Shown: positions 1 to 12,560 of the stretch, piece by piece
Numbering within the stretch: position 1 is the stretch's first letter
Layout of the letters: every line of letters starts with the position of its first letter
From: Coriobacteriia bacterium
Lineage (GTDB): Bacteria; Actinomycetota; Coriobacteriia; Anaerosomatales; Anaerosomataceae
Assembly (NCBI GenBank): GCA_030652115.1
Contig: JAUSBK010000001.1
Location: forward strand, 306,254 to 370,253
Direction: 5' to 3'
Length of the DNA: 64,000 bases
The notes under the pieces: generated by a model
The model's database searches: none
Told to the model about the DNA's origin: nothing
The model's input: the letters and a program-made list of their open reading frames with translations, nothing else
Position numbers and translations under genes: made by a program

Positions 1-2
1 TC

Positions 3-140
3 GCGCACATCGCTTCCTCGGATTCGCACTCGCTCGAGGAGATGGGGCGCCGGACGGCGACCCTCGAGATGTCCGAGCTGTCCTTCGAGGGCCTCGCATC
101 TGCCCTCCGCGTGGCCAGGTCGGTTGAGTCGCCCGGATAG
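3..140 (+). CDS. PHP-domain metal-dependent phosphoesterase, C-terminal fragment
   Basis: Only the last 45 codons are present; the gene runs in from the left edge and ends at TAG 138-140. The segment contains ASSDSHSLEEMG followed by a short beta-alpha tail. A D-x-H-S motif followed by an E-x-x-G turn is typical of the last metal-binding strand of PHP (polymerase and histidinol phosphatase) phosphoesterases. Substrate cannot be judged from the fragment. The reading frame was chosen because it alone gives this motif and protein-like composition; the other two forward frames are arginine/proline-rich and look like shadows. Confidence 0.55.
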   Translation, partial: AHIASSDSHSLEEMGRRTATLEMSELSFEGLASALRVARSVESPG

Positions 141-277
141 TTGACGCCGCGCCGCTCGCGGGAACACACTCCCTGTATGGGATGACCGTACCTGGGGAAC
201 GGTCGTGAGCAGCCGGCGGCGGCGCGAGGTTCATCCCTGCTCCGCGGTCGCTGCACCGCGGCGTATAGGGGGCAAAC

Positions 278-1945
278 ATGTCACGGAACCGGTTGCGCGG
301 ACTCGCTGCAACGGTGTCGGCAATCATCCTTCTCTCAGGACTGGTGATCGTCCCAGGGGTGTCGGCGACAGAACCCTACTCGATCGAGCAGAAAGTCACC
401 GAGGCCGGTACCTCGCACTACGGCATCAGTACGGCGGTGTCGGGAACGACAGCCATCGTGGGCTCGTACTGGGCGCCGCAGGCGGCGTACGTGTACGTCC
501 GGTCCGGCGACACCTGGACAAAGCAGCAGACCATCACGCACACCGAGGGGTCGGCGTCGGACATGTTCGGGTTTGCGGTGGACATCGACGGCGACACCCT
601 CGTCATCGGCGCCCCTCAGCACGAGCACAGCGCGCTTCTCTCAGCGGGAGCCGCGTACGTGTACGTGCGTTCCGGCTCTACGTGGTCGCTCCAGCAGAAG
701 CTGGTCGCCACCGACGCGGGAACCTATGACTTTTTCGGCCACTCGGTGTCACTCCAAGGCGACACGGTCGTGATCGGTGCGGCTGCGGCCGAAACGACCG
801 AGGGTGACAACAGAGGGGCTGCGTACGTCTTCACCCGCTCCGGCTCGACGTGGACGCAGACGCAGAAGCTCACCGCCGCCGGAACGACCGCCCCGGGGCT
901 CGCGGATGACAGCTTCGGTCACTCGGTGGCGCTTTCCGGTGACCGGATCGCGGTCGGGGCACCGTATGCCGACCCGAATGGGGAGGCCTTCGCTGGACGC
1001 GTCTACACGTATGCGCGCTCGGGCGGAACGTGGTCGTTTGACGAGCACATCCAGGCTGCGACGCCCGTGACGTATCACTACGTAGGGCGGGATATCGCGC
1101 TCGACGGTGCGACACTCCTGGTTGGTGCGTTTGGCGGTCCAGGAGCGGCGAACATGTATGTGGACACTGCCTCTGGTTGGACGCTCCAGCAGACGCTGCT
1201 CCAACCGGATTACACACCGGGAAGCTACTTCGGTTACACCGTGGACCTCTACGGCGATACGGCAGTGATCGACGCTCAGTACGCGGACGGCGGTTCGGTT
1301 CAGGATGCCGGCGCCGTGTACGTATTCACCCGGAGCGGGTCGACCTGGACGTACCTCAAGACGCTCTACGCTGCCGACGGAGCGCTCTCTGACAGGCTCG
1401 GCGCATGCGCCGTCGGTCCCGGTGTGGTGACGGCCGGCGCTGAGTGGGGGGCCTCGGCCACCGGCAAGGCGTACTTCTTCAGCACTCCCACGCCGCCCGT
1501 GACGCTCGCCCCCGTCTACCGCTTCTACAACTTCACCAACAACACGCACTTCTTCACCTCGTCGCTCGACGAGGCGAACTCGGTCATCCTGAACTACCCG
1601 AAGGTTTTCCGCTACGAGGGCATCTGCTATTACACCAACCCCGCTAACAACACGCAGCCCCTCTACCGCTTCTACAACCGTGTGAGCGCGAGCCACTTCT
1701 ATACTGCGTCGCTCGACGAGGCGAACCACATCCTGGCCACCTGGCCGCACATCTTCACCCTTGACGGCCAGACCTACGCCGTGAACCCGGCGCCGGTCCC
1801 CAACAGCGTTCCGGTCTACCGGTTCTTCAACCTCACAAACGGCAGCCACTTCTACACGTCAAGCGCGGAAGAGGCCGACATGGTGATCGCCACCTGGCCA
1901 ACGATCTACAGCTACGAGGGCCCGGCGTTCTGGATCGGGCAGTAA
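278..1945 (+). CDS. Secreted FG-GAP propeller protein with DUF5648-type repeats (array member 1)
   Basis: A 555-aa exported protein. Residues 1-30 form a Sec signal peptide (basic start, hydrophobic core, VSA before the likely cut). Residues about 35-400 hold successive blades of the form FG.SV.....DT.V.GAP....G.AYV(F/Y).R.G..W, matching FG-GAP_2-type propeller repeats. Residues about 413, 461 and 513 begin three repeats with RF(Y/F)N, HF(Y/F)T and W/P-x-(I/V)-(F/Y) anchors, as in DUF5648. FG-GAP propellers often bind ligands or other surface proteins; the function here is unknown. Stop is TAA and member 2 begins 37 bp later, so co-transcription is likely. No transpeptidase motif or membrane anchor follows the repeats, so the repeats may provide surface attachment (inference). 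Confidence 0.9.
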   Translation: MSRNRLRGLAATVSAIILLSGLVIVPGVSATEPYSIEQKVTEAGTSHYGISTAVSGTTAIVGSYWAPQAAYVYVRSGDTWTKQQTITHTEGSASDMFGFAVDIDGDTLVIGAPQHEHSALLSAGAAYVYVRSGSTWSLQQKLVATDAGTYDFFGHSVSLQGDTVVIGAAAAETTEGDNRGAAYVFTRSGSTWTQTQKLTAAGTTAPGLADDSFGHSVALSGDRIAVGAPYADPNGEAFAGRVYTYARSGGTWSFDEHIQAATPVTYHYVGRDIALDGATLLVGAFGGPGAANMYVDTASGWTLQQTLLQPDYTPGSYFGYTVDLYGDTAVIDAQYADGGSVQDAGAVYVFTRSGSTWTYLKTLYAADGALSDRLGACAVGPGVVTAGAEWGASATGKAYFFSTPTPPVTLAPVYRFYNFTNNTHFFTSSLDEANSVILNYPKVFRYEGICYYTNPANNTQPLYRFYNRVSASHFYTASLDEANHILATWPHIFTLDGQTYAVNPAPVPNSVPVYRFFNLTNGSHFYTSSAEEADMVIATWPTIYSYEGPAFWIGQ

Positions 1946-1982
1946 GGGGACGGGCGCACAGCCTGCGCGAGAGGAGCCGACG

Positions 1983-3989
1983 ATGAAGAGGCGCTGGACA
2001 ACTCGAATTGCGGCAATCGTGATCGGGGCGCTGATGCTTGCCACGATGGCGCCGGTTGCGGTGCCGTCAGCGGCGGCGAGCGCTGCGCCGTTCGCGATAC
2101 AGCAGGCGCGGGTGTTTTCGGGCATCACGCCGAGCCTCGACGGCTACGCCACCTCGGTGGCGATCTCCGGGAACCTTATGGCGGTGGGCTCGCCGGACCT
2201 GAGCAACGACCAGGGCGCTGTCTACGTGTACAAGCGAACAGGGACGACCTGGTCGTGGGTTGAGACGCTCTATGCAGCCGGAGTCTCCGACGGCGACGAG
2301 TTCGGCAAGTGCGTGGCGATGGACGGCAACCGCCTCGTGGTGGGTGCTCCGCACCACTGGACCGGAGGCGGTCCGGTGGGCGTGGCCTTCGTGTACACCT
2401 GGAACGGCACGACCTTCGGCACCCCCGTGCAACTGTCCGGCGAGACGATCGCCGCTGACGAGCGCTACGGCGAGGCGGTTGCCATCGACGGGGACACCCT
2501 CGTGGTGGGGGCGCCGCTAGACGGCACCGCCGGGTCGGCGTGGCCGTACCGGTGGAACGGCGCATCATGGATCAACCAGGGCACGCTCAACGGCTCGGCT
2601 GGCGACGCGCTGGGCTGGTCTGTCGCGATCGCCGGTGACACGATTCTCGCGAGCGCCACCGGCCGCGACAATCCGGTGGGGCCCCTTGTGGACGCCGGCA
2701 GCTTCATGGTCTTCACGCGTACCGGCGCCGCATGGTCGTACCAGCAGCGTCTGTATGCCCCCGACCCCAAGGCAGGCGCCTTCTTCGGATCGCCCATCGA
2801 CATGTCCGGCTCGGGGTACACCGCGCTGATTGGCGCGCCGAACTGGGATGCGGGCGCCGGCGACGATAACACCGGACGTGCGTACATGTACGCGCGCGGG
2901 CTCACGAGTTGGGCACACAGCCAGACGCTCGCGAACCCCGGCACCAACTCGCCCGATGGCGACTACTTCGGCACGGGCGTGGCGCTGGACGGGGACCGTC
3001 TCGCGTTGGTGGGTGCGTTCTGGGACGACTCGCATCTGGGCGCCGGCTACTACTACACCAGGACCAGCGGCGACTGGGGCATGAGCCAGAAGATCAGCAT
3101 GAGCGGTACGAGCCCTGCGGTGGCGCTGTTCGGTCGCTCGGTGGACATGGACAACGGCACCACGGTTGTAGGGGCTCCCACAAGCGGCAATGCGGGTCCG
3201 CCGCTCGTGTCGATTCCCGGGTCGGCCTTCGTGTACTCCACCCGCGCGACGATCACGGGCATCTGCCGCAACGCGCAGACGGGTCTTCCGATGGCGGGTG
3301 TTGAGGTGCAGGCGCACTACCTAGACGCGTGGGGTGATGCTTCACCGGCCTCGGAGTTCGTGGTGTCCGGCGCCGACGGCAGGTATACGCTCACTGTTGA
3401 CTCGGGACGCGTCTACGTCAACTTCCTTCCTGGAGCCCTGTATGAGGCTGGGTGGTACAACGACGTCGAGTCGTGGCCAGAGGCGTCACCGATCGACGTC
3501 TGGGCCGGCAACACGTACAACGTGGACTTCACGATCTACCCGAAGTTCTCGGTTTTCCGCTTCTTCAACGTCACCAACAACACGCACTTCTTCACCGACT
3601 CGCTGCAGGAGAAGAACATGGTGCTCGCCACGTGGCCCGCGATCTTCCGCTACGAGGGGATCGCGTACACCACGAATCCCGCGCTCAACCTGCAGCCGCT
3701 CTATCGCTTCTACAACCGGGCGAGCAAGAGCCACTTCTACACGGCGTCACTCGATGAAGCGAATCACGTGATTGCCACCTGGTCGCACATCTTCACCTAT
3801 GACGGGCCGACGTACTCCGTCTCTCCGATCGCGGGTGCGGGCATGTCGCCGGTCTACCGCTTCTACAACGTGCGCAACGGGAGCCACTTCTACACGGCCT
3901 CTGCGCAGGAAGCCGACATGGTGATCGCAACGTGGCCTGACGTGTACCGCTTCGAAGGGCCAGCGTTCTGGGTGGGCGGCTCGTTCTAG
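1983..3989 (+). CDS. Secreted FG-GAP propeller with carboxypeptidase-regulatory-like insert and DUF5648-type repeats (array member 2)
   Basis: A 668-aa paralogue of its neighbours with a signal peptide (MKRRWTTR start, cleavage near AAASA). The propeller spans about residues 35-415. At about 421-520 a domain starting TITGICRNAQTGLPMAGVEV and containing GADGRYTLTVDSG matches the carboxypeptidase regulatory-like/CNA-B beta-sandwich pattern and is absent from members 1, 3, 5 and 6. Three DUF5648-type repeats begin near 523, 572 and 623. ATG at 1983 follows GAGAGGAGCCGACG. The gene lies 37 bp after member 1 and 30 bp before member 3. The insert looks like a modular spacer or extra binding domain between propeller and tail. 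Confidence 0.9.
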   Translation: MKRRWTTRIAAIVIGALMLATMAPVAVPSAAASAAPFAIQQARVFSGITPSLDGYATSVAISGNLMAVGSPDLSNDQGAVYVYKRTGTTWSWVETLYAAGVSDGDEFGKCVAMDGNRLVVGAPHHWTGGGPVGVAFVYTWNGTTFGTPVQLSGETIAADERYGEAVAIDGDTLVVGAPLDGTAGSAWPYRWNGASWINQGTLNGSAGDALGWSVAIAGDTILASATGRDNPVGPLVDAGSFMVFTRTGAAWSYQQRLYAPDPKAGAFFGSPIDMSGSGYTALIGAPNWDAGAGDDNTGRAYMYARGLTSWAHSQTLANPGTNSPDGDYFGTGVALDGDRLALVGAFWDDSHLGAGYYYTRTSGDWGMSQKISMSGTSPAVALFGRSVDMDNGTTVVGAPTSGNAGPPLVSIPGSAFVYSTRATITGICRNAQTGLPMAGVEVQAHYLDAWGDASPASEFVVSGADGRYTLTVDSGRVYVNFLPGALYEAGWYNDVESWPEASPIDVWAGNTYNVDFTIYPKFSVFRFFNVTNNTHFFTDSLQEKNMVLATWPAIFRYEGIAYTTNPALNLQPLYRFYNRASKSHFYTASLDEANHVIATWSHIFTYDGPTYSVSPIAGAGMSPVYRFYNVRNGSHFYTASAQEADMVIATWPDVYRFEGPAFWVGGSF

Positions 3990-4019
3990 GCCGAGGCAGC
4001 GAGCTCGAGGGGAGCTGTG

Positions 4020-5684
4020 ATGAGGATGCGAAGGGTCCGGGCGCTTGCTGTGACTGCGGCGCTGCTGACTACAGTGGTCGTGCTTACGGCACCAGCGGCG
4101 GCCTACGGTGCGTTCGCCGAGCAGGTGGCGAGACTGCACGCGACCGATGGTGCGCAGAACGACTGGTTCGGGAACAACGTGGACATCGACGGCGACACGG
4201 TCGTGGTCGGCGCACCAGGGGATGACTCGCAGCGTGGCTCGGCCTACGTATACATCCGAACGGCCGGCGGCTGGGTCTTCCAGCAGAAGCTCACGGCGCC
4301 GGCGCTTGCGGCTGGAGACATGTACGGCGCGGATGTGGCCGTTTCGGGCGACTTCATCGTCGTGGGTGCGCCGTACCGTACCGCGGGTACCGAGATCCTG
4401 GCGGGTCGAATCTACGTCTACCGCCGGGTGGCCGGCGTGTGGGGTCCCGTGTATGACACGGCAGCCCCCGTTCCACATGCCGGTGACTCATTCGGCTGGT
4501 CGGTGGACATCGAGGGCAGCACGATCGTCGTGGGCGTGCCCTACTTCGATAGCGTGTACGGTCCCGAGCATGGACTCGCCTACGTCTACCGATGGAACGG
4601 CTCGGCATGGTCGTCCTTCCAGTACCTCGAGGACACCGACCCTGGTGAGGACAACATGCTTGGCCGATCGGTGAAGATCTCCGGCACCACCATCGTTTGC
4701 GGTTCGCCCGGCGAGGATTCCTTGGCGGGCAGTGTGGTCGTGTTCGGCTGGAACGGCGCCGTGTGGACGTTCAGGCAGAAACTCTACGTTTCGGGCGGGG
4801 CGGCGGGAGACCAGTTCGGCAACTCCGTCGATGTCTCAGGCAACACCATCGTCGCCGGTGCGCCAGGCCGCGACCTGATGACGGGAATAGACGCGGGGGC
4901 GGCCTACGCCTTCGTGAACCCGGGCGCTGCGTGGGCGTGGCAGGCATCGTTCGTGTCTCCCGATCCGAGCGAGTACAAGGGCTTCGGCTCAGGCGTCGGC
5001 ATCGACGGCGACACGCTTGCCGTCGGCGAATGGCAAGGCTCGGCGGGTGCTGGTGCGGCGCATTTCTACAGGCGAAGCGGCACACTCTGGCCACGCGTGC
5101 AGTCCACGGACATGTCGGCGGCCAATCCGGCGGTGCGCATGTTCGGCTGCTCGACTGCAGTGAGCAAGGGCACCATCGTCGTCGGCTCGTACCTGGCGAG
5201 CACCGCCACGGTGACCGAGCCGGGCGGCGCCTTCATCTACTCACATCTTGAGCCGGTCTATCGCTTCTATAACCCGGGTGCGGGAACGCACTTCTACACT
5301 CCCTCGGCAACAGAACGCGACCATGTGCTGGCCACCTGGCCGAACGTCTTCTCGTACGAGGGGGTCGTGTACAAGACGAATCCCGAGAACAACCCGCAGC
5401 CGCTCTACCGCTTCTTTAACCACACGAACGGCAGTCACTTCTACACGGCGTCGCTCGTGGAGGCGGACCATGTGATCGCCACGTGGCCGGGCATCTTCAC
5501 GTACGAGGGGCAGACGTACGCGGTCACCCCGTGGCCGTGCGCCGGGCCGACCGTGTACCGCTTCTACAACCTGAAGAATGGCAGTCACTTCTACACGGCC
5601 TCTGCTGAAGAGGCCGACATGGTTATCGCCACGTGGCCAACGGTGTACCGTTACGAGGGACCGGTATTCTGGCTCGGGCAGTAG
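4020..5684 (+). CDS. Secreted FG-GAP propeller protein with DUF5648-type repeats (array member 3)
   Basis: A 554-aa protein; ATG 4020 is preferred over the GTG directly before it because GAGGGGAG lies 6-8 bp upstream. The signal peptide ends near APAAAYG. Seven blades can be counted by their (F/Y/L)G turn: DWFG, DMYG, DSFG, NMLG, DQFG, KGFG and RMFG, each followed by a D/S-G-x-T-(I/L)-V-x-G strand, which fits a complete seven-bladed propeller. Three DUF5648-type repeats begin near residues 412, 460 and 511. It lacks the beta-sandwich insert of members 2 and 4. It is the clearest member for counting blades. Function unknown. Confidence 0.9.
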   Translation: MRMRRVRALAVTAALLTTVVVLTAPAAAYGAFAEQVARLHATDGAQNDWFGNNVDIDGDTVVVGAPGDDSQRGSAYVYIRTAGGWVFQQKLTAPALAAGDMYGADVAVSGDFIVVGAPYRTAGTEILAGRIYVYRRVAGVWGPVYDTAAPVPHAGDSFGWSVDIEGSTIVVGVPYFDSVYGPEHGLAYVYRWNGSAWSSFQYLEDTDPGEDNMLGRSVKISGTTIVCGSPGEDSLAGSVVVFGWNGAVWTFRQKLYVSGGAAGDQFGNSVDVSGNTIVAGAPGRDLMTGIDAGAAYAFVNPGAAWAWQASFVSPDPSEYKGFGSGVGIDGDTLAVGEWQGSAGAGAAHFYRRSGTLWPRVQSTDMSAANPAVRMFGCSTAVSKGTIVVGSYLASTATVTEPGGAFIYSHLEPVYRFYNPGAGTHFYTPSATERDHVLATWPNVFSYEGVVYKTNPENNPQPLYRFFNHTNGSHFYTASLVEADHVIATWPGIFTYEGQTYAVTPWPCAGPTVYRFYNLKNGSHFYTASAEEADMVIATWPTVYRYEGPVFWLGQ

Positions 5685-5722
5685 GGGGTGCGAGCGGGGA
5701 GCTCGCGCGGAGGGAGTCGTAC

Positions 5723-7744
5723 ATGAGACGTCGTTGGGTGACCCGGTGTGCAGCGATCGCGACCGGAGCGCTGGTGCTTGCCACGGTGGTGCCGCTTGCG
5801 GTGCCGACCGCGATGGCCGGCTCGGCTCCATTCGCGGTCGATGAGGACATCATCTACGCGCAGACTCCGGTGACGGATGAGAGATTCGGCTCCGCGGTGG
5901 CGATCGACGGCGACACCCTCGTGGTGGGCGTGCCCGAGTACGACACCTTGGCCGGTCCGCAGAATGTCGGCCGGGTGGATGTCTTCGTGCGGTCCGGGAC
6001 CGACTGGGTGAAGCAGACGTCGCTGTACGCTTCAGCGCCCGGTGACGGTGACAAATTCGGCACCTCGGTGGCGATCTCTGGTGACCGGATCGTGGTCGGG
6101 GCACCTTTCTACTACGGGTCGCATGGCGAATCGGGCGCCGCGTATGTCTTCACGCGTACCGGGACGGCGTGGTCGGCGGCGGACATGCTGCCTGATGAGT
6201 TCGCTCAGGAAGGCGATCAGATCGGCCAGTCCGTTGACATCGAGGGCACCACTATCGTGGTCGGCTGCCCCGGGGACAGCAGCGGGCGCGGAGCGGTGCG
6301 TCCGATCTACTGGAACGGGAGCGACTGGGACTCCGGCGGTGGCGTGCATCTGCTCGACCCGTCGGGCATGGCGGGAGACCGCCTCGGCACGTGCGTGTCG
6401 CTCTCGGGCAACACGGTGCTTGCATCGGCCGGTGGAGATGACGTGGGAACGGTGGCGGCGATCGTGGACGCGGGCAGCGTGCTGTCGTTCACGCGCAGCG
6501 GCACGACGTGGTCGTTCGAGCAGAAGTGGCAGGCGCCCACGCCGGTGGCCGACGAGCAGTTCGGCGGCCCCATCGACCTGCAGGCAGGCGGCTATGTGGC
6601 CGTCATCGGCTCGCCCGCGCATGACGTAGGTGCCGAGGTGGATAAGGGCATCGCGTACGTGTACGCGCGTGGCACGAGCGGTTGGGTGCTCACCGCCACG
6701 CTCGATAACCCCGGCCCCAACTCGCCGGACGGCGACTGGTTCGGCTCGGCGGTAGCCTTCGACGGTCATAACCTGATCCTCATCGGCGCCTTCTGGGACG
6801 ACCTCCACACCGGCGCGGCGTACTACTTCCAGTACCGCGAGGGCGAGTGGGTGATGGCGCAGAAGGTCACGCCGGACGCATACCCGTGTTGCGCGCTCTT
6901 TGGCGATTCGGCGGCGCTCGACGGCGGGATCGCGATGATCGGCGCCACGCTCGCCTCTACGGGTTGAGCGGATCAAACGGGCGCAGTTTACGCCTATAAC
7001 AGCAACGCGACGATCACCGGCACCTGCTACGACGCGCTAACGGGACTCCCGCTCGCGGGCGTTGAGGTCTCGGCATACTACCCGGATGGCTGGGGCGATC
7101 CGGAGCTTGAGCAGTACGTGACGACCGGCGCTGACGGCAGGTACACGCTCACCGTCGACTCAGGCGAGTATTACCTCGGCACGATGGGGCCAAGCTCTCT
7201 CTACCAGGCTGGCTGGTACAACAAGGCCAGCGGATGGACAGATGCCGACCCCTGGACGTTCTGGGCGGGCACCAGCACTACGATCAACTTCACCATCTAC
7301 CGGAAGGCGCCGGTCTTCCGGTTCTTCAACAAGCTCAACATGACGCATTTCTTCACCGACTCGATCGCCGAGCGCGACCACGTGATCGCGACCTGGCCCG
7401 GTGTGTACGACTACGAGGGCATCGCCTACTACACAAGTCCGAATACCGACCTGCAGCCGCTGTACCGTTTCTACAACACGCGATCGAACAGTCACTTCTA
7501 CACCGCGTCGGCCGACGAGCGGAGTCGTGTGATCGCAACGTGGCCGACCATCTTCAACTACGACGGCCCCACCTATCGCGTCTCGGCGGGACCGGACTAC
7601 GGCAGGTCTCCTGTCTACCGCTTCTACAACGTGCGAAATGGCAGCCACTTCTACACGGCGAGTCTCGATGAAGCGAACCACGTGATCGTCACGTGGCCGG
7701 ACGTGTACCAGTTCGAGGGCCCGGCATTCTGGATCGGACAGTAG
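5723..7744 (+). pseudogene. FG-GAP propeller/regulatory-like/DUF5648-type protein interrupted by an in-frame TGA (array member 4)
   Basis: ATG 5723 starts a signal peptide (MRRRWVTR, near-identical to member 2). The same frame stays open to TAG 7742-7744 except for one TGA at 6965-6967. Upstream are about 414 residues covering almost the whole propeller; downstream, without a frame change, come GAVYAY, the regulatory-like domain (from about residue 428, with GADGRYTLTVDSG) and three DUF5648-type repeats (about 529, 578, 630). Member 2 gives the full-length template, so this is one gene with one nonsense codon, not two genes. No start with a ribosome site lies close after the stop. It may be a genuine pseudogene, a sequencing error (CGA or TGG to TGA), or rarely read through. 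Confidence 0.85.
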
Positions 7745-7767
7745 CGCTGCTGCAGCCGCAGATCGAC

Positions 7768-7800
7768 GTGGGCGCCCCTCCGGGGGCGCCCACTTTCGTT
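7768..7800 (+). terminator. Rho-independent-like terminator after array member 4
   Basis: An 11-bp perfect stem (GTGGGCGCCCC at 7768-7778, complement at 7783-7793) with a TCCG tetraloop is followed by TTTCGTT. It separates array members 1-4 from members 5-6 and suggests two transcription units. Confidence 0.75.
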
Positions 7801-7864
7801 ACGTCTGCCTCCGCCCTGGGAACCCACGTCTCTAGGGAGGGGTTTGAGGGGGGAGGTGGCAGTG

Positions 7865-9529
7865 ATGCCGCGCATTCGTTTGTGTGCATCGGCGCTCGTT
7901 GTGGTGCTTGCATTTGCGCTGGTGGTGGGTCCACTACCCGAGGCGGGCGCTGCGGTGGAGACGCCGCCTCCTGTTCAGTACACGGCCCGCGTGTTCGCCG
8001 CTGACAGCCCGACCGACGAGGACTTCGGCTACTCCGTGGCGATCGACGGGAACACTGCGGTGGTGGGCTCGCCAGACTACAACGGGAAGGGCGCCGTCTT
8101 CGTCTATGAGTATGTGAGCGGACTGTGGACGTTCAGCGAGGAGCTGCCGGCGGATTCGGGCGTCGGGGACCGTTTCGGCCACTCGGTGGACATCGATGGT
8201 GATCTCATCGTCGTGGGCATGCCGTACGGGAACTCGAGCGCGGCGGACGATACGGGTGCGGCCATCGTGTACGAGCGCGGTTTGGCGGGGTGGGAGTACC
8301 TGACCGAACTAGCTCCCGAGCCCAGCTCGGTCGGCGACCTCTTCGGCTGGTCGGTTGCCATGTCGGGGAACCGGGCAGTCGTGGGCTCGCCCAAGGACGA
8401 CCAGATGGCCACCGATTCAGGTGCGATCTACATCTTCACGAGGACCGAACCCGCCTATGTCAAGTACATGTCCTCGGCGGCCGAGGCGGGCGCCGAGTAC
8501 GGCACGTCGGTCGACCTTGATGGCGACTACATCATCGTGGGCGCTCCCCGGGACGACACCGCCGCAGGCGCGGATGCGGGCGCGGTCCACTTCTACCACT
8601 GGGACGGCGCGTTCTGGGACTACCAGGGGATCCGCTTCGGCTCGAGTGACGATGCGGGTGACCGGTTCGGCTACGCGGTATCGATCTCCGGCGATCGCGC
8701 GCTGGCGGGGGCATTCCTGGACGATGTCGCCACGGCGGAGGGTGCGGGGTCGACGGACGTATTCAACCGTTCGGGCACGAACTGGTTCTGCACCCAGACA
8801 CTGGTCTCGCCAGCGCCGAACGCCGGCGACAACTTCGGCATGGCCGTGTCGGTGGAGGGTACGTTCGCACTCGTGGGCGCGCCATGGGACGACAGCTACG
8901 CGGGTTCGGTGCACGTCTATCAATGCCTGGGTGACACCTGGACGCTCATGCGGAAGATGACGCCGCTGCCGGGTGACAGCCTTGCTGGATTCTCGGTCGC
9001 GGCGTCATCGCAGGGCCGCGGTATCGTCGGCAACGTCACGGGCACGGGCGCCCAGCCGGCCTCGGGCACAGCGTGCATGCTCGCACACCTCGAGCCGGTC
9101 TACCGCTTCTACAACGCGGGCGCGGGCACGCACTTCTTCACCAACTCGGCCGAGGAGCGCGACCACGTGATCGCCACCTGGCCGACCGTGTTCACCTACG
9201 AGGGTCCGGCGTACAACACGAACCCGCACAACAACACGCAGCCGCTCTACCGTTTCTACAAGCCGAGCAGCTCGAGTCACTTCTACACGGCATCGCTCGA
9301 CGAAGCGAACCACGTCCTTGCAACGTGGCCGCACATCTACAGCTACGATGGCCCGACGTACGCGGTCACGCCGTACGCCGAGGCGGGCACGCTGCCGGTC
9401 TACCGCTTCTACAACGTCCGCAATGGCAGCCACTTCTACACGGCGAGTCTCGATGAGGCGAACCACGTGATCGCCACGTGGCCGACGGTCTACCACTACG
9501 AGGGACCGGCGTTCTGGCTCGGGCAGTAG
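7865..9529 (+). CDS. Secreted FG-GAP propeller protein with DUF5648-type repeats (array member 5)
   Basis: A 554-aa exported protein. ATG 7865 (MPRIRLCAS) is chosen because GGGGGGAGGT lies 7-12 bp upstream; an in-frame earlier start at 7844 would bury that site. The signal peptide ends near PEAGA. The propeller has blades marked by EDFGYSV, DRFGHSV, DLFGWSV, AEYGTSV, DRFGYAV and DNFGMAV. DUF5648-type repeats begin near residues 411, 459 and 511. The 5' leader and first residues closely resemble those of member 6, so the two are probably the youngest duplicates. It follows the terminator at 7768 and so probably has its own promoter, although I see no convincing -35/-10 pair. Confidence 0.9.
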   Translation: MPRIRLCASALVVVLAFALVVGPLPEAGAAVETPPPVQYTARVFAADSPTDEDFGYSVAIDGNTAVVGSPDYNGKGAVFVYEYVSGLWTFSEELPADSGVGDRFGHSVDIDGDLIVVGMPYGNSSAADDTGAAIVYERGLAGWEYLTELAPEPSSVGDLFGWSVAMSGNRAVVGSPKDDQMATDSGAIYIFTRTEPAYVKYMSSAAEAGAEYGTSVDLDGDYIIVGAPRDDTAAGADAGAVHFYHWDGAFWDYQGIRFGSSDDAGDRFGYAVSISGDRALAGAFLDDVATAEGAGSTDVFNRSGTNWFCTQTLVSPAPNAGDNFGMAVSVEGTFALVGAPWDDSYAGSVHVYQCLGDTWTLMRKMTPLPGDSLAGFSVAASSQGRGIVGNVTGTGAQPASGTACMLAHLEPVYRFYNAGAGTHFFTNSAEERDHVIATWPTVFTYEGPAYNTNPHNNTQPLYRFYKPSSSSHFYTASLDEANHVLATWPHIYSYDGPTYAVTPYAEAGTLPVYRFYNVRNGSHFYTASLDEANHVIATWPTVYHYEGPAFWLGQ

Positions 9530-9552
9530 AGTTCGAGGGGGAGGTTGCAGCG

Positions 9553-11214
9553 ATGCCACATGTTCGTTCGCGTGCCCTAGTGCTCGTGGTTGTACTGGCG
9601 GTCTCGTCGTTCGCGGTGCCGTTGCCGGCGGCTGGAGTGTTGGACACGCCTGCGCCGGTGCAGTGCACTGGGACGGTATGGCCTGCAGGCGGTGTGGTCG
9701 ACGACCAGTTCGGTTACTCGGTGGCTATCGACGGCAACACGGCCGTGGTGGGAGCGCCTGCCTACGAAGACAGGGGCGCTGCGTTCGTCTACGAGTACAA
9801 CGGGACCAACTGGGTCTTCGCGCAGCGGATTCCGGCCGACCCGGCGGTCGGAGACGGCTTTGGGACAGCGGTCGACATAGACGGGGACTACATCGTGGTC
9901 GGCGCCCCATGGGACACTGTCTCCGCCGTTCAGCGCGGATCTGCGGTCGTCTTCCACCGTGGGCCGGGCGGATGGGCGTACTACGCGGAGCTTGTTCCGA
10001 CCACGGCTGCTGCAGGCGACCGGTTCGGCTTCGCGGTGTCGATCTACGGGACCACCGTCGTGGTTGGCGCGCCGCGGGATGACTCCCTGGCCGCGGACGC
10101 GGGCGCGATCTACATCTTCAAGGAGGGCAGCTCCACACTCAAGCGACTCATGGCCAGTTCCGAGGCCGGCGCCGAGTTCGGCAGGGCGGTGGACGTGTAC
10201 GGGAACTATCTGGTCGCGGGCGCTCCCTTCGAGGACAACGCCGGCGGTACGAACGCAGGATCCGCGCTCATGTACTACGGGGACGGCGCGACCCCGTGGA
10301 CGGCGACGGGCTACGTATACGCGCACGATCCACAAGCCAACGCCGGCTTCGGCTTCTCGGTAGCCACCAACGGCGCGAACGCCATGGTGGGCGCATACAC
10401 CTACGATGTCGGCACTCAGGCCGCTGCGGGTGCGGTCGACGCGTTCACGCGTTCCTCGAGCGGTCTGGGCGCCACGTGGCCCTGGTCGCAGACGCTTACT
10501 TCGCCGCAGCCGAATGCGAACGACAACTTCGGCCAGGCGGTCTCGGTGAGCAGTTCAGTGGCGGTCGTGGGCGCGCCGTGGGATGACGGCATGGCCGGCT
10601 CGGCGCACTTCTACGAGAAGACGGCCGGTGGCTGGACCCTTACGCGGAAGATTCCGGGCGCCGGATGGTTCGGCTACTCGGTAGCGGCGTCGGCAGAGGG
10701 GCGCTTCGTCGTGGGCGCGATGGTCGGCGACGGCGCCGCCATGGACTCCGGCGTGGCGTACTTCTACGCCATCTGGCACCCGGTCTACCGCTTCTACAAC
10801 GCGGGCGCGGGCACGCACTTCTTCACGAGTTCGGCCGAGGAGCGCGCCCATGTGATCGCCACGTGGCCGACGATCTTCGCCTACGAGGGCGTGAGTTACT
10901 CGGTGAACCCGTACAACAACAAGGAGCCGCTCTACCGCTTCTACAAGCCGAGCAGCTCGAGTCACTTCTACACCGCCTCGGAAGAGGAGCGCGACCACGT
11001 GATCGCCACGTGGCCCACCATCTACCAGTACGACGGTCCCACCTACGAAGTCTCGCCGTCGCCCGAGGCGGCCAAGCTACCGGTGTACCGCTTCTACAAT
11101 CTCCAGAACGGCAGCCACTTCTACACAGCGAGTCTCGATGAGGCGAACCACGTGATCGCGACGTGGCCGACGGTCTACCGCTACGAGGGGCCGGCGTTCT
11201 GGCTTGGCCAGTAG
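9553..11214 (+). CDS. Secreted FG-GAP propeller protein with DUF5648-type repeats (array member 6)
   Basis: A 553-aa exported protein starting at ATG 9553 (MPHVRSRA) behind GGGGGAGGTTGCAGCG; an in-frame start at 9478 would overlap member 5 and is rejected. The signal peptide ends near LPAAG. The propeller spans about residues 40-400 and DUF5648-type repeats begin near 408, 458 and 510. The first repeat is nearly identical at DNA level to that of member 5 (around 9100 and 10780), including the KPSSSSHFYTAS block that follows, which suggests recent duplication or gene conversion. The gap to member 5 is 23 bp, so they are probably co-transcribed. It closes the array. Confidence 0.9.
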   Translation: MPHVRSRALVLVVVLAVSSFAVPLPAAGVLDTPAPVQCTGTVWPAGGVVDDQFGYSVAIDGNTAVVGAPAYEDRGAAFVYEYNGTNWVFAQRIPADPAVGDGFGTAVDIDGDYIVVGAPWDTVSAVQRGSAVVFHRGPGGWAYYAELVPTTAAAGDRFGFAVSIYGTTVVVGAPRDDSLAADAGAIYIFKEGSSTLKRLMASSEAGAEFGRAVDVYGNYLVAGAPFEDNAGGTNAGSALMYYGDGATPWTATGYVYAHDPQANAGFGFSVATNGANAMVGAYTYDVGTQAAAGAVDAFTRSSSGLGATWPWSQTLTSPQPNANDNFGQAVSVSSSVAVVGAPWDDGMAGSAHFYEKTAGGWTLTRKIPGAGWFGYSVAASAEGRFVVGAMVGDGAAMDSGVAYFYAIWHPVYRFYNAGAGTHFFTSSAEERAHVIATWPTIFAYEGVSYSVNPYNNKEPLYRFYKPSSSSHFYTASEEERDHVIATWPTIYQYDGPTYEVSPSPEAAKLPVYRFYNLQNGSHFYTASLDEANHVIATWPTVYRYEGPAFWLGQ

Positions 11215-11229
11215 CACGTGACGGCTGAC

Positions 11230-11244
11230 GCCCGATCATCGGGC
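11230..11244. terminator. Small hairpin between convergent genes
   Basis: GCCCGAT-C-ATCGGGC is a perfect 7-1-7 inverted repeat between the end of the propeller array and the convergent apgM gene. There is no T-tract, so its role as a shared terminator is tentative. Confidence 0.35.
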
Positions 11245-11252
11245 AAGCAGCC

Positions 11253-12560
11253 TCACTCCACGGCCCGGAGGCCTTTCAGGTCTGCGGGCCGTGGTATGCC
11301 GAAGGCCCGGTGGCCGGTGATGCGGTCGGCAAGGAACGCCGAGCGGTCGGCTGCATCGAGCGCGAGCGGGAGCACGTCGGTGCCGCGTACCACGCCGAGC
11401 GAGCCTGCGGCGGCGGCCGTTTCGCCGTAGGCGGTCACCCCGTCGGCGCCTGCCACGCCGCCCGCGATCGTGAGCGGAACCGCGCCTCCGCCGTGGTAGA
11501 GCGGCCCTGCCGATGGCGTCTGGTGGTCCGGGCACACGATCACCACGATCTCGCCACGCTCGGCGAGCGGCACGAGCGGCGCGAGCGCGCGGTCCACCGC
11601 CGCGATGATCTCCGCCTTGCGGGCGGGGTTCTTGTGGTGCCCGGCCTGGTCGGTGCGCTTGGTGTGCAGGTGCACGAACTCGTACCCCTCGGCAAGCAGC
11701 GCGAGCGTGGCCTCTACGCGCACGGCCACGTCAGCCTCGGCATCGCTCACCGTGCCAAACTCGCGGTGGTCGAGCCCGATGGCGGCAGCGAGGCCGTGGT
11801 AGAGCGGTCCCGAGCCGAGGCTGACCCCGCGCATGCCGAAGCGGGCCGGAAACGACGTGTAGCGTGCGGGCGCGCCCGCCCACTTGGCGAGCATCGCGTC
11901 GAGCGGACGCCCGGCGAGCACGGTGCGCGAGTGGCGGATCCAGGCGTTCACCGCACACGCGGTGCGCGCGGCCGCCTTGGCGTCGGGCGCCTCTTCGAGC
12001 GGCAGCACCTCGAGGACTGCGGTGCCCGCATGCAGCGGATCGGCGTCGCTCACGAAGTGCGAGAGCGCCGGCCCGTCGGTGGGGTTGAGGAAGAGCAGAC
12101 CCTGCAGGGCACCGGTGTGCACGAAGTGGGCCTGCACGCTGCCGTACTCGAAGTCGAGCGAGATGCCGTCGAGTCCGGCCTCGCCCTCGCGCGGGTCGGG
12201 CCGCTCCTCGATCCACAGCACACCCTCGCGCTCGGTCACGCGCGCGAGGTTGGCGCGCAGCACCACTTCGCCGGGAGAAGGCGGCAGGTCCTCGCCGAGC
12301 GCTTCGAGCAGTCCGCGCCCGGGGAACTCGGCTTCCGTGTAGCCGAAGAGCGCGAAGTGCGCCTGGTGCGAGCTGGGCGCAAGGCCCGGGCCCACGGGGT
12401 AGAGGAGGCCGCTTCGGCCGAGGGAGGCGAGCGCGTCGAGGTTGGGCGTCTCGGCGGCCTCGATCGGGGTGCGTCCGTCGAGCTCGGGCTGCGGGCGGTC
12501 GCCCGCGCCGTCGGGCACCACCATCACGATGGGGCGCCGTACGTCCGCGCTCTCGCCCAT
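11253..12560 (-). CDS. apgM: Cofactor-independent phosphoglycerate mutase, ApgM type
   Basis: A 435-aa protein of the alkaline-phosphatase superfamily, predicted to interconvert 2- and 3-phosphoglycerate in glycolysis in the cytoplasm. The N-terminus has VMVVPDGAGDRP, the metal-site aspartate strand of this fold, followed by TPIEAAETPNLDALA, typical of the archaeal-type ApgM family. Further metal-site segments are SSHQAHFALFGY and, near the C-terminus, HLHTKRTDQAGHH and VCPDHQTP. ATG 12560 is preferred over upstream in-frame starts because GGAGGGGACGG precedes it directly. It is convergent with the propeller array and divergent from the methyltransferase gene. Confidence 0.85.
   Translation of the reverse strand: MGESADVRRPIVMVVPDGAGDRPQPELDGRTPIEAAETPNLDALASLGRSGLLYPVGPGLAPSSHQAHFALFGYTEAEFPGRGLLEALGEDLPPSPGEVVLRANLARVTEREGVLWIEERPDPREGEAGLDGISLDFEYGSVQAHFVHTGALQGLLFLNPTDGPALSHFVSDADPLHAGTAVLEVLPLEEAPDAKAAARTACAVNAWIRHSRTVLAGRPLDAMLAKWAGAPARYTSFPARFGMRGVSLGSGPLYHGLAAAIGLDHREFGTVSDAEADVAVRVEATLALLAEGYEFVHLHTKRTDQAGHHKNPARKAEIIAAVDRALAPLVPLAERGEIVVIVCPDHQTPSAGPLYHGGGAVPLTIAGGVAGADGVTAYGETAAAAGSLGVVRGTDVLPLALDAADRSAFLADRITGHRAFGIPRPADLKGLRAVE

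Follow-up and report, generated by a model that had tools for sequence, protein, structure and literature searches.

Organization of the propeller gene array

The window analyzed here is a stretch of 64,000 nucleotides from a Coriobacteriia genome (G000, 2.38 Mb in 14 contigs, 98% complete; window at G000:C1:306254-370253). Six FG-GAP_2 propeller/DUF5648 genes are arranged head to tail at positions 278-11214 of the window, and member 4, the fourth of them, carries an in-frame TGA. No internal stop was found in the other five array members. The features of the array are as follows.

278..1945, + strand: member 1, FG-GAP_2 and DUF5648, uninterrupted
1983..3989, + strand: member 2, closest paralogue of member 4, same architecture, uninterrupted
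4017..5684, + strand: member 3, FG-GAP_2 and DUF5648, uninterrupted
5723..6967, + strand: member 4, 5' part, signal peptide (by eye) and seven FG-GAP_2 blades, the last of them only as far as its strand 2, 414 amino acids (PF14312 match and models)
6965..6967, + strand: in-frame TGA, codon 415 of member 4
6968..7744, + strand: member 4 frame continued, with strand 3 of blade 7, carboxypeptidase-regulatory-like domain, DUF5648 tail and TAG (PF18885, PF13620 and models)
7768..7793, + strand: terminator-like hairpin of 11 pairs, directly 3' of member 4 (consensus scan only)
7844..9529, + strand: member 5, FG-GAP_2 and DUF5648, uninterrupted
9478..11214, + strand: member 6, FG-GAP_2 and DUF5648, uninterrupted, its listed start overlapping member 5

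The true start of member 6 is probably downstream of the listed one. The hairpin at 7768-7793 is strong in its 11 pairs and has a weak T run; it comes from a consensus scan of positions 1-11400 that found 8 such sites against 4.2 expected. It possibly splits the array into two transcription units and, since it follows member 4, polar effects of the TGA would stay within member 4.

All the FG-GAP_2 matches listed for the source genome fall in the array cluster (34 counted among the matches listed), and none of four congeneric genomes has an FG-GAP_2 match, which suggests that the array was expanded or acquired specifically in this lineage. DUF5648 has a much broader distribution than FG-GAP_2: the source genome has 44 matches, a strong expansion, and the congeners have 14, 24, 3 and 8. 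Proteins of quite different kinds in the source genus seem to carry it as a C-terminal module. One carrier, as judged by eye, is an S8-type peptidase-like protein (L061, 130-2631).

A single in-frame TGA in member 4

The frame of member 4 extends over 674 codons from ATG 5723, with an SD-like GGAGGG on its 5' side, to TAG 7742-7744, and the TGA at 6965-6967 (+ strand), codon 415, is its sole internal stop. Beyond the TGA the same frame continues for 258 further codons without a stop, and the other two forward frames contain 5 and 6 stops in that stretch. GC3 is 0.84 before the TGA and 0.83 after it, so that coding composition is retained on both sides. The part before the TGA matches FG-GAP_2 (PF14312, 2.2e-42) and the part after it matches DUF5648 (PF18885, E 5.6e-50); the strength of the latter match argues that the open frame after the TGA is not there by chance. 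A carboxypeptidase-regulatory-like domain (PF13620) after the TGA is a weak match, at 3.7e-06 and below its cut-off. FG-GAP_2 and DUF5648 are thus both present in member 4, but the TGA splits them and they do not share a single open frame. These observations bear out the first-pass annotation, which had described a single in-frame TGA in the fourth propeller paralogue, a frame open on both sides of it over 674 codons, and a product alignable with member 2: the two proteins align end to end with 52% identity. We have also considered a separate downstream gene and rejected it. The first start codon after the TGA, GTG 7118, comes 50 codons later and already falls within the following domain. It is preceded by no more than a weak GGAG, and a signal peptide is not apparent by eye.

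Position of the stop in the predicted fold

In AlphaFold2 models built with six sequences from the window, codon 415 lies in a loop (residues 409-420) that joins strand 403-408 to strand 421-426 in blade 7. The TGA is therefore located inside a blade and not at a domain boundary. Because it precedes strand 3 of this blade, that strand is lost along with the carboxypeptidase-regulatory-like domain and the whole DUF5648 tail. The earlier proposal that the seventh blade loses its last strand together with the tail is accordingly upheld and made more precise: the stop interrupts the blade after its second strand, within the connecting loop. An N-terminal strand at 41-45 is present in the model of full-length member 4 (pLDDT 70.2) and absent from that of the 414-residue truncated protein (pLDDT 80.9). 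Strand 41-45 is predicted to pair with 421-426 and would close the ring. In propellers of the integrin type, according to an excerpt of PMC3192720, the fourth strand of blade 7 is non-sequential and comes from the N-terminus; the loss of strand 41-45 in the truncated model fits closure of this type. Even when truncated, the protein is modelled with confidence as a partial ring, so that its loss of function may be less than total.

Relatives at the site and the age of the stop

Member 2 has no stop at the site, and neither does a homologue from another genus (genome G024), in which residues 1-544 could be aligned with 46% identity. The latter alignment is gapless around codon 415 and has Asp at the site. 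Of these three sequences, only member 4 thus carries the TGA. Between member 4 and member 2, dN is 0.55 and dS 1.05 before the site, and dN is 0.35 and dS 0.83 after it. With the G024 homologue as outgroup, member 4 has 48 unique changes and member 2 has 58 before the site, and the corresponding numbers after it are 14 and 16. These counts indicate that member 4 does not evolve faster than member 2 on either side of the TGA, and the region after the TGA, which shows no extra divergence, appears to have been under constraint until recently.

No further lesion was found in the remaining 673 codons of member 4. Had member 4 been free to decay, one or more additional stops would be expected with 95% probability at a neutral divergence of 0.046 when only stops are counted; with indels included at an assumed one tenth of substitutions, an additional stop or frameshift would be expected with the same probability at 0.011. 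The lack of a second stop or frameshift suggests that the TGA, if real, is young, with neutral divergence since its appearance below roughly 1-5%.

Possible explanations for the TGA

The frame of member 4 is free of decay except for the TGA, and a consensus error would leave the same picture. The main rival to a real stop is a wrong consensus base at the TGA, arising from sequencing or assembly error or from a minor strain variant, with the gene intact in the organism; this possibility deserves attention but stays well short of probable. Such an error would agree with the TGA being the only lesion in 674 codons, with the lack of relaxed constraint in the comparison with member 2 and the G024 outgroup, and with an assembly in 14 contigs whose recovered relatives are mostly MAG records. 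On the other hand, a 203-base probe at the site matches itself and otherwise gives only short matches of 79-88%; the DNA around the TGA is thus unique in the genome, which makes repeat collapse unlikely. Moreover, a crude scan of the window gave no other frame of a real gene that we judged to show such a pattern. A scan of genome contigs with the read-through protein of member 4 returned 0 loci, so that no further assembly of the species emerged from it. The same scan with a neighboring protein, which we take to be phosphoglycerate-mutase-like, returned 9 loci, several of them titled Coriobacteriia or Actinobacteria and mostly MAGs. It is also conceivable that the stop is real and favored by selection, the 414-residue protein being a functional short form without the tail, as its model retains most of the ring. 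We consider this very unlikely, given that the cut falls within a blade and would take away the predicted ring-closing strand, and that the sequence after the TGA has no extra divergence and kept its constraint until recently.

Programmed or leaky readthrough of the UGA, which would yield an open short propeller along with a closed long form that bears the tail, draws on the intact and constrained frame beyond the stop, but we regard it as highly improbable. The variant in which low-level readthrough gives mostly a short, unclosed, tail-less propeller and a rarer closed long form with a putative glycan-binding tail is, in our view, extremely improbable. None of the 44 tRNAs of the genome has a UCA anticodon (all tRNA matches read by ARAGORN). 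UGA readthrough has been linked to a tRNA-Trp with a four-pair anticodon stem or with A9C/G24A (excerpt of PMC13092985); the tRNA-Trp of this genome is canonical, with a 5-pair anticodon stem, A9 and G24, and is the unmodified form by the criteria given in that excerpt. RF2 (prfB) is present (461.6 bits), and TGA is an ordinary stop that ends 22 of 52 genes in the window, the member 4 frame included, by crude GC3-based gene calls of which some are doubtful. The 80 bases from the TGA onward fold worse than shuffled sequences (z +1.38), 186 of 200 shuffles folding at least as well, and contain no stable or SECIS-like stem. The location of the TGA inside blade 7, away from a domain boundary, and its absence from member 2 and the G024 homologue argue in the same direction. 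If readthrough were nevertheless true, member 4 would encode a surface protein whose form is hedged or regulated, among siblings that are otherwise uninterrupted. Reassignment of UGA is rejected, in view of RF2, the common use of TGA as a stop, the lack of a UCA tRNA and the canonical tRNA-Trp. A selenocysteine codon would be in keeping with the clade, which uses Sec as judged by strong tRNA-Sec matches (63 bits or more) in 25 of the 31 genomes searched. However, the best tRNA-Sec match in the source genome (47.6 bits) is the window's own tRNA-Ser. SelB over the cut-off is absent from this genome and present in 24 of 31 genomes, and SelA is likewise absent and present in 16 of 21. Furthermore, no stem follows the TGA and no Cys is found at the site in the aligned homologues (member 2 and the G024 sequence). 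With no sel genes in the assembly and no stem, selenocysteine is rejected, and we give it next to no chance. The lack of selA, selB and tRNA-Sec in an assembly that is 98% complete reflects either loss or an assembly gap (L119, L126); a gap is possible because part of the flank of the sel locus in genome G001 matches a 4.7 kb contig of the source genome. Taken together, the evidence supports the order in which the three options had initially been ranked, namely recent pseudogene, sequencing error and, less likely, readthrough.

Preferred interpretation

On balance, we favor the view that member 4 is a very recent nonsense pseudogene, the fourth copy in a redundant six-gene array. One very recent nonsense substitution would have inactivated a secreted FG-GAP propeller with a DUF5648 tail. 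Ribosomes would halt at codon 415 through the action of RF2, and the resulting 414-residue product would lack strand 3 of blade 7, so that the N-terminal strand would be left without a partner and the ring would not be closed. The putative glycan-binding tail would be missing as well, and the product would probably be misfolded or non-functional. The five sibling copies would make loss of member 4 tolerable.

Comparison with other propellers and interrupted genes

Propeller genes disrupted by in-frame stops or frameshifts have been described, with possible sequencing errors noted by the authors (excerpt of PMC9218822), and member 4 would add one more case in which an in-frame stop interrupts such a gene. 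As in those described in the excerpt, the coding sequence remaining after the stop is still readable. Those propellers are highly repetitive and both of the cases described in the excerpt involve deletions, whereas the blades of member 4 are diverged and one substitution suffices. Member 4 also belongs to a tandem array. Among solved structures, integrin alpha chains (PDB 9b9k and others) have the nearest folds. Member 4 shares its predicted fold with the seven-bladed FG-GAP propellers of the integrin alpha type, where the N-terminus provides blade 7 with its fourth strand (PMC3192720). In contrast to them, it is bacterial, carries a DUF5648 tail and shares only 13-17% identity among the matches listed, and its truncated form is predicted to be incapable of closing the ring in that way. 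DUF5648 (PF18885) occurs in the C-terminal domains of BSAP and in GH70 enzymes (excerpt of PMC12853789); unlike in these proteins, the DUF5648 of member 4 sits beyond a stop.

Among the matches listed for the read-through protein, internal stops occur only in member 4 and in a match on contig C2 of genome G001. The latter, with an apparent 2 TGA, was rejected as a second interrupted case because the sequence has unknown bases (residue X), for which reason it is read as a scaffold gap. Two DUF5648 matches of the source genome also contain stops; these are normal ends of genes into which the profile extends. In the G001 assembly, a DUF5648 gene (L061, near 2600-2850) is broken at unknown bases, apparently by a scaffold gap in its repeat-like tail.

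For the genetic code at large, the TGA of member 4 carries no implications. It does show why annotation pipelines would split one gene into two fragments here, a propeller without its tail and a DUF5648 protein standing on its own. If the stop is real, member 4 would show the very first stage of gene loss within a tandem family of surface proteins that is specific to its lineage.
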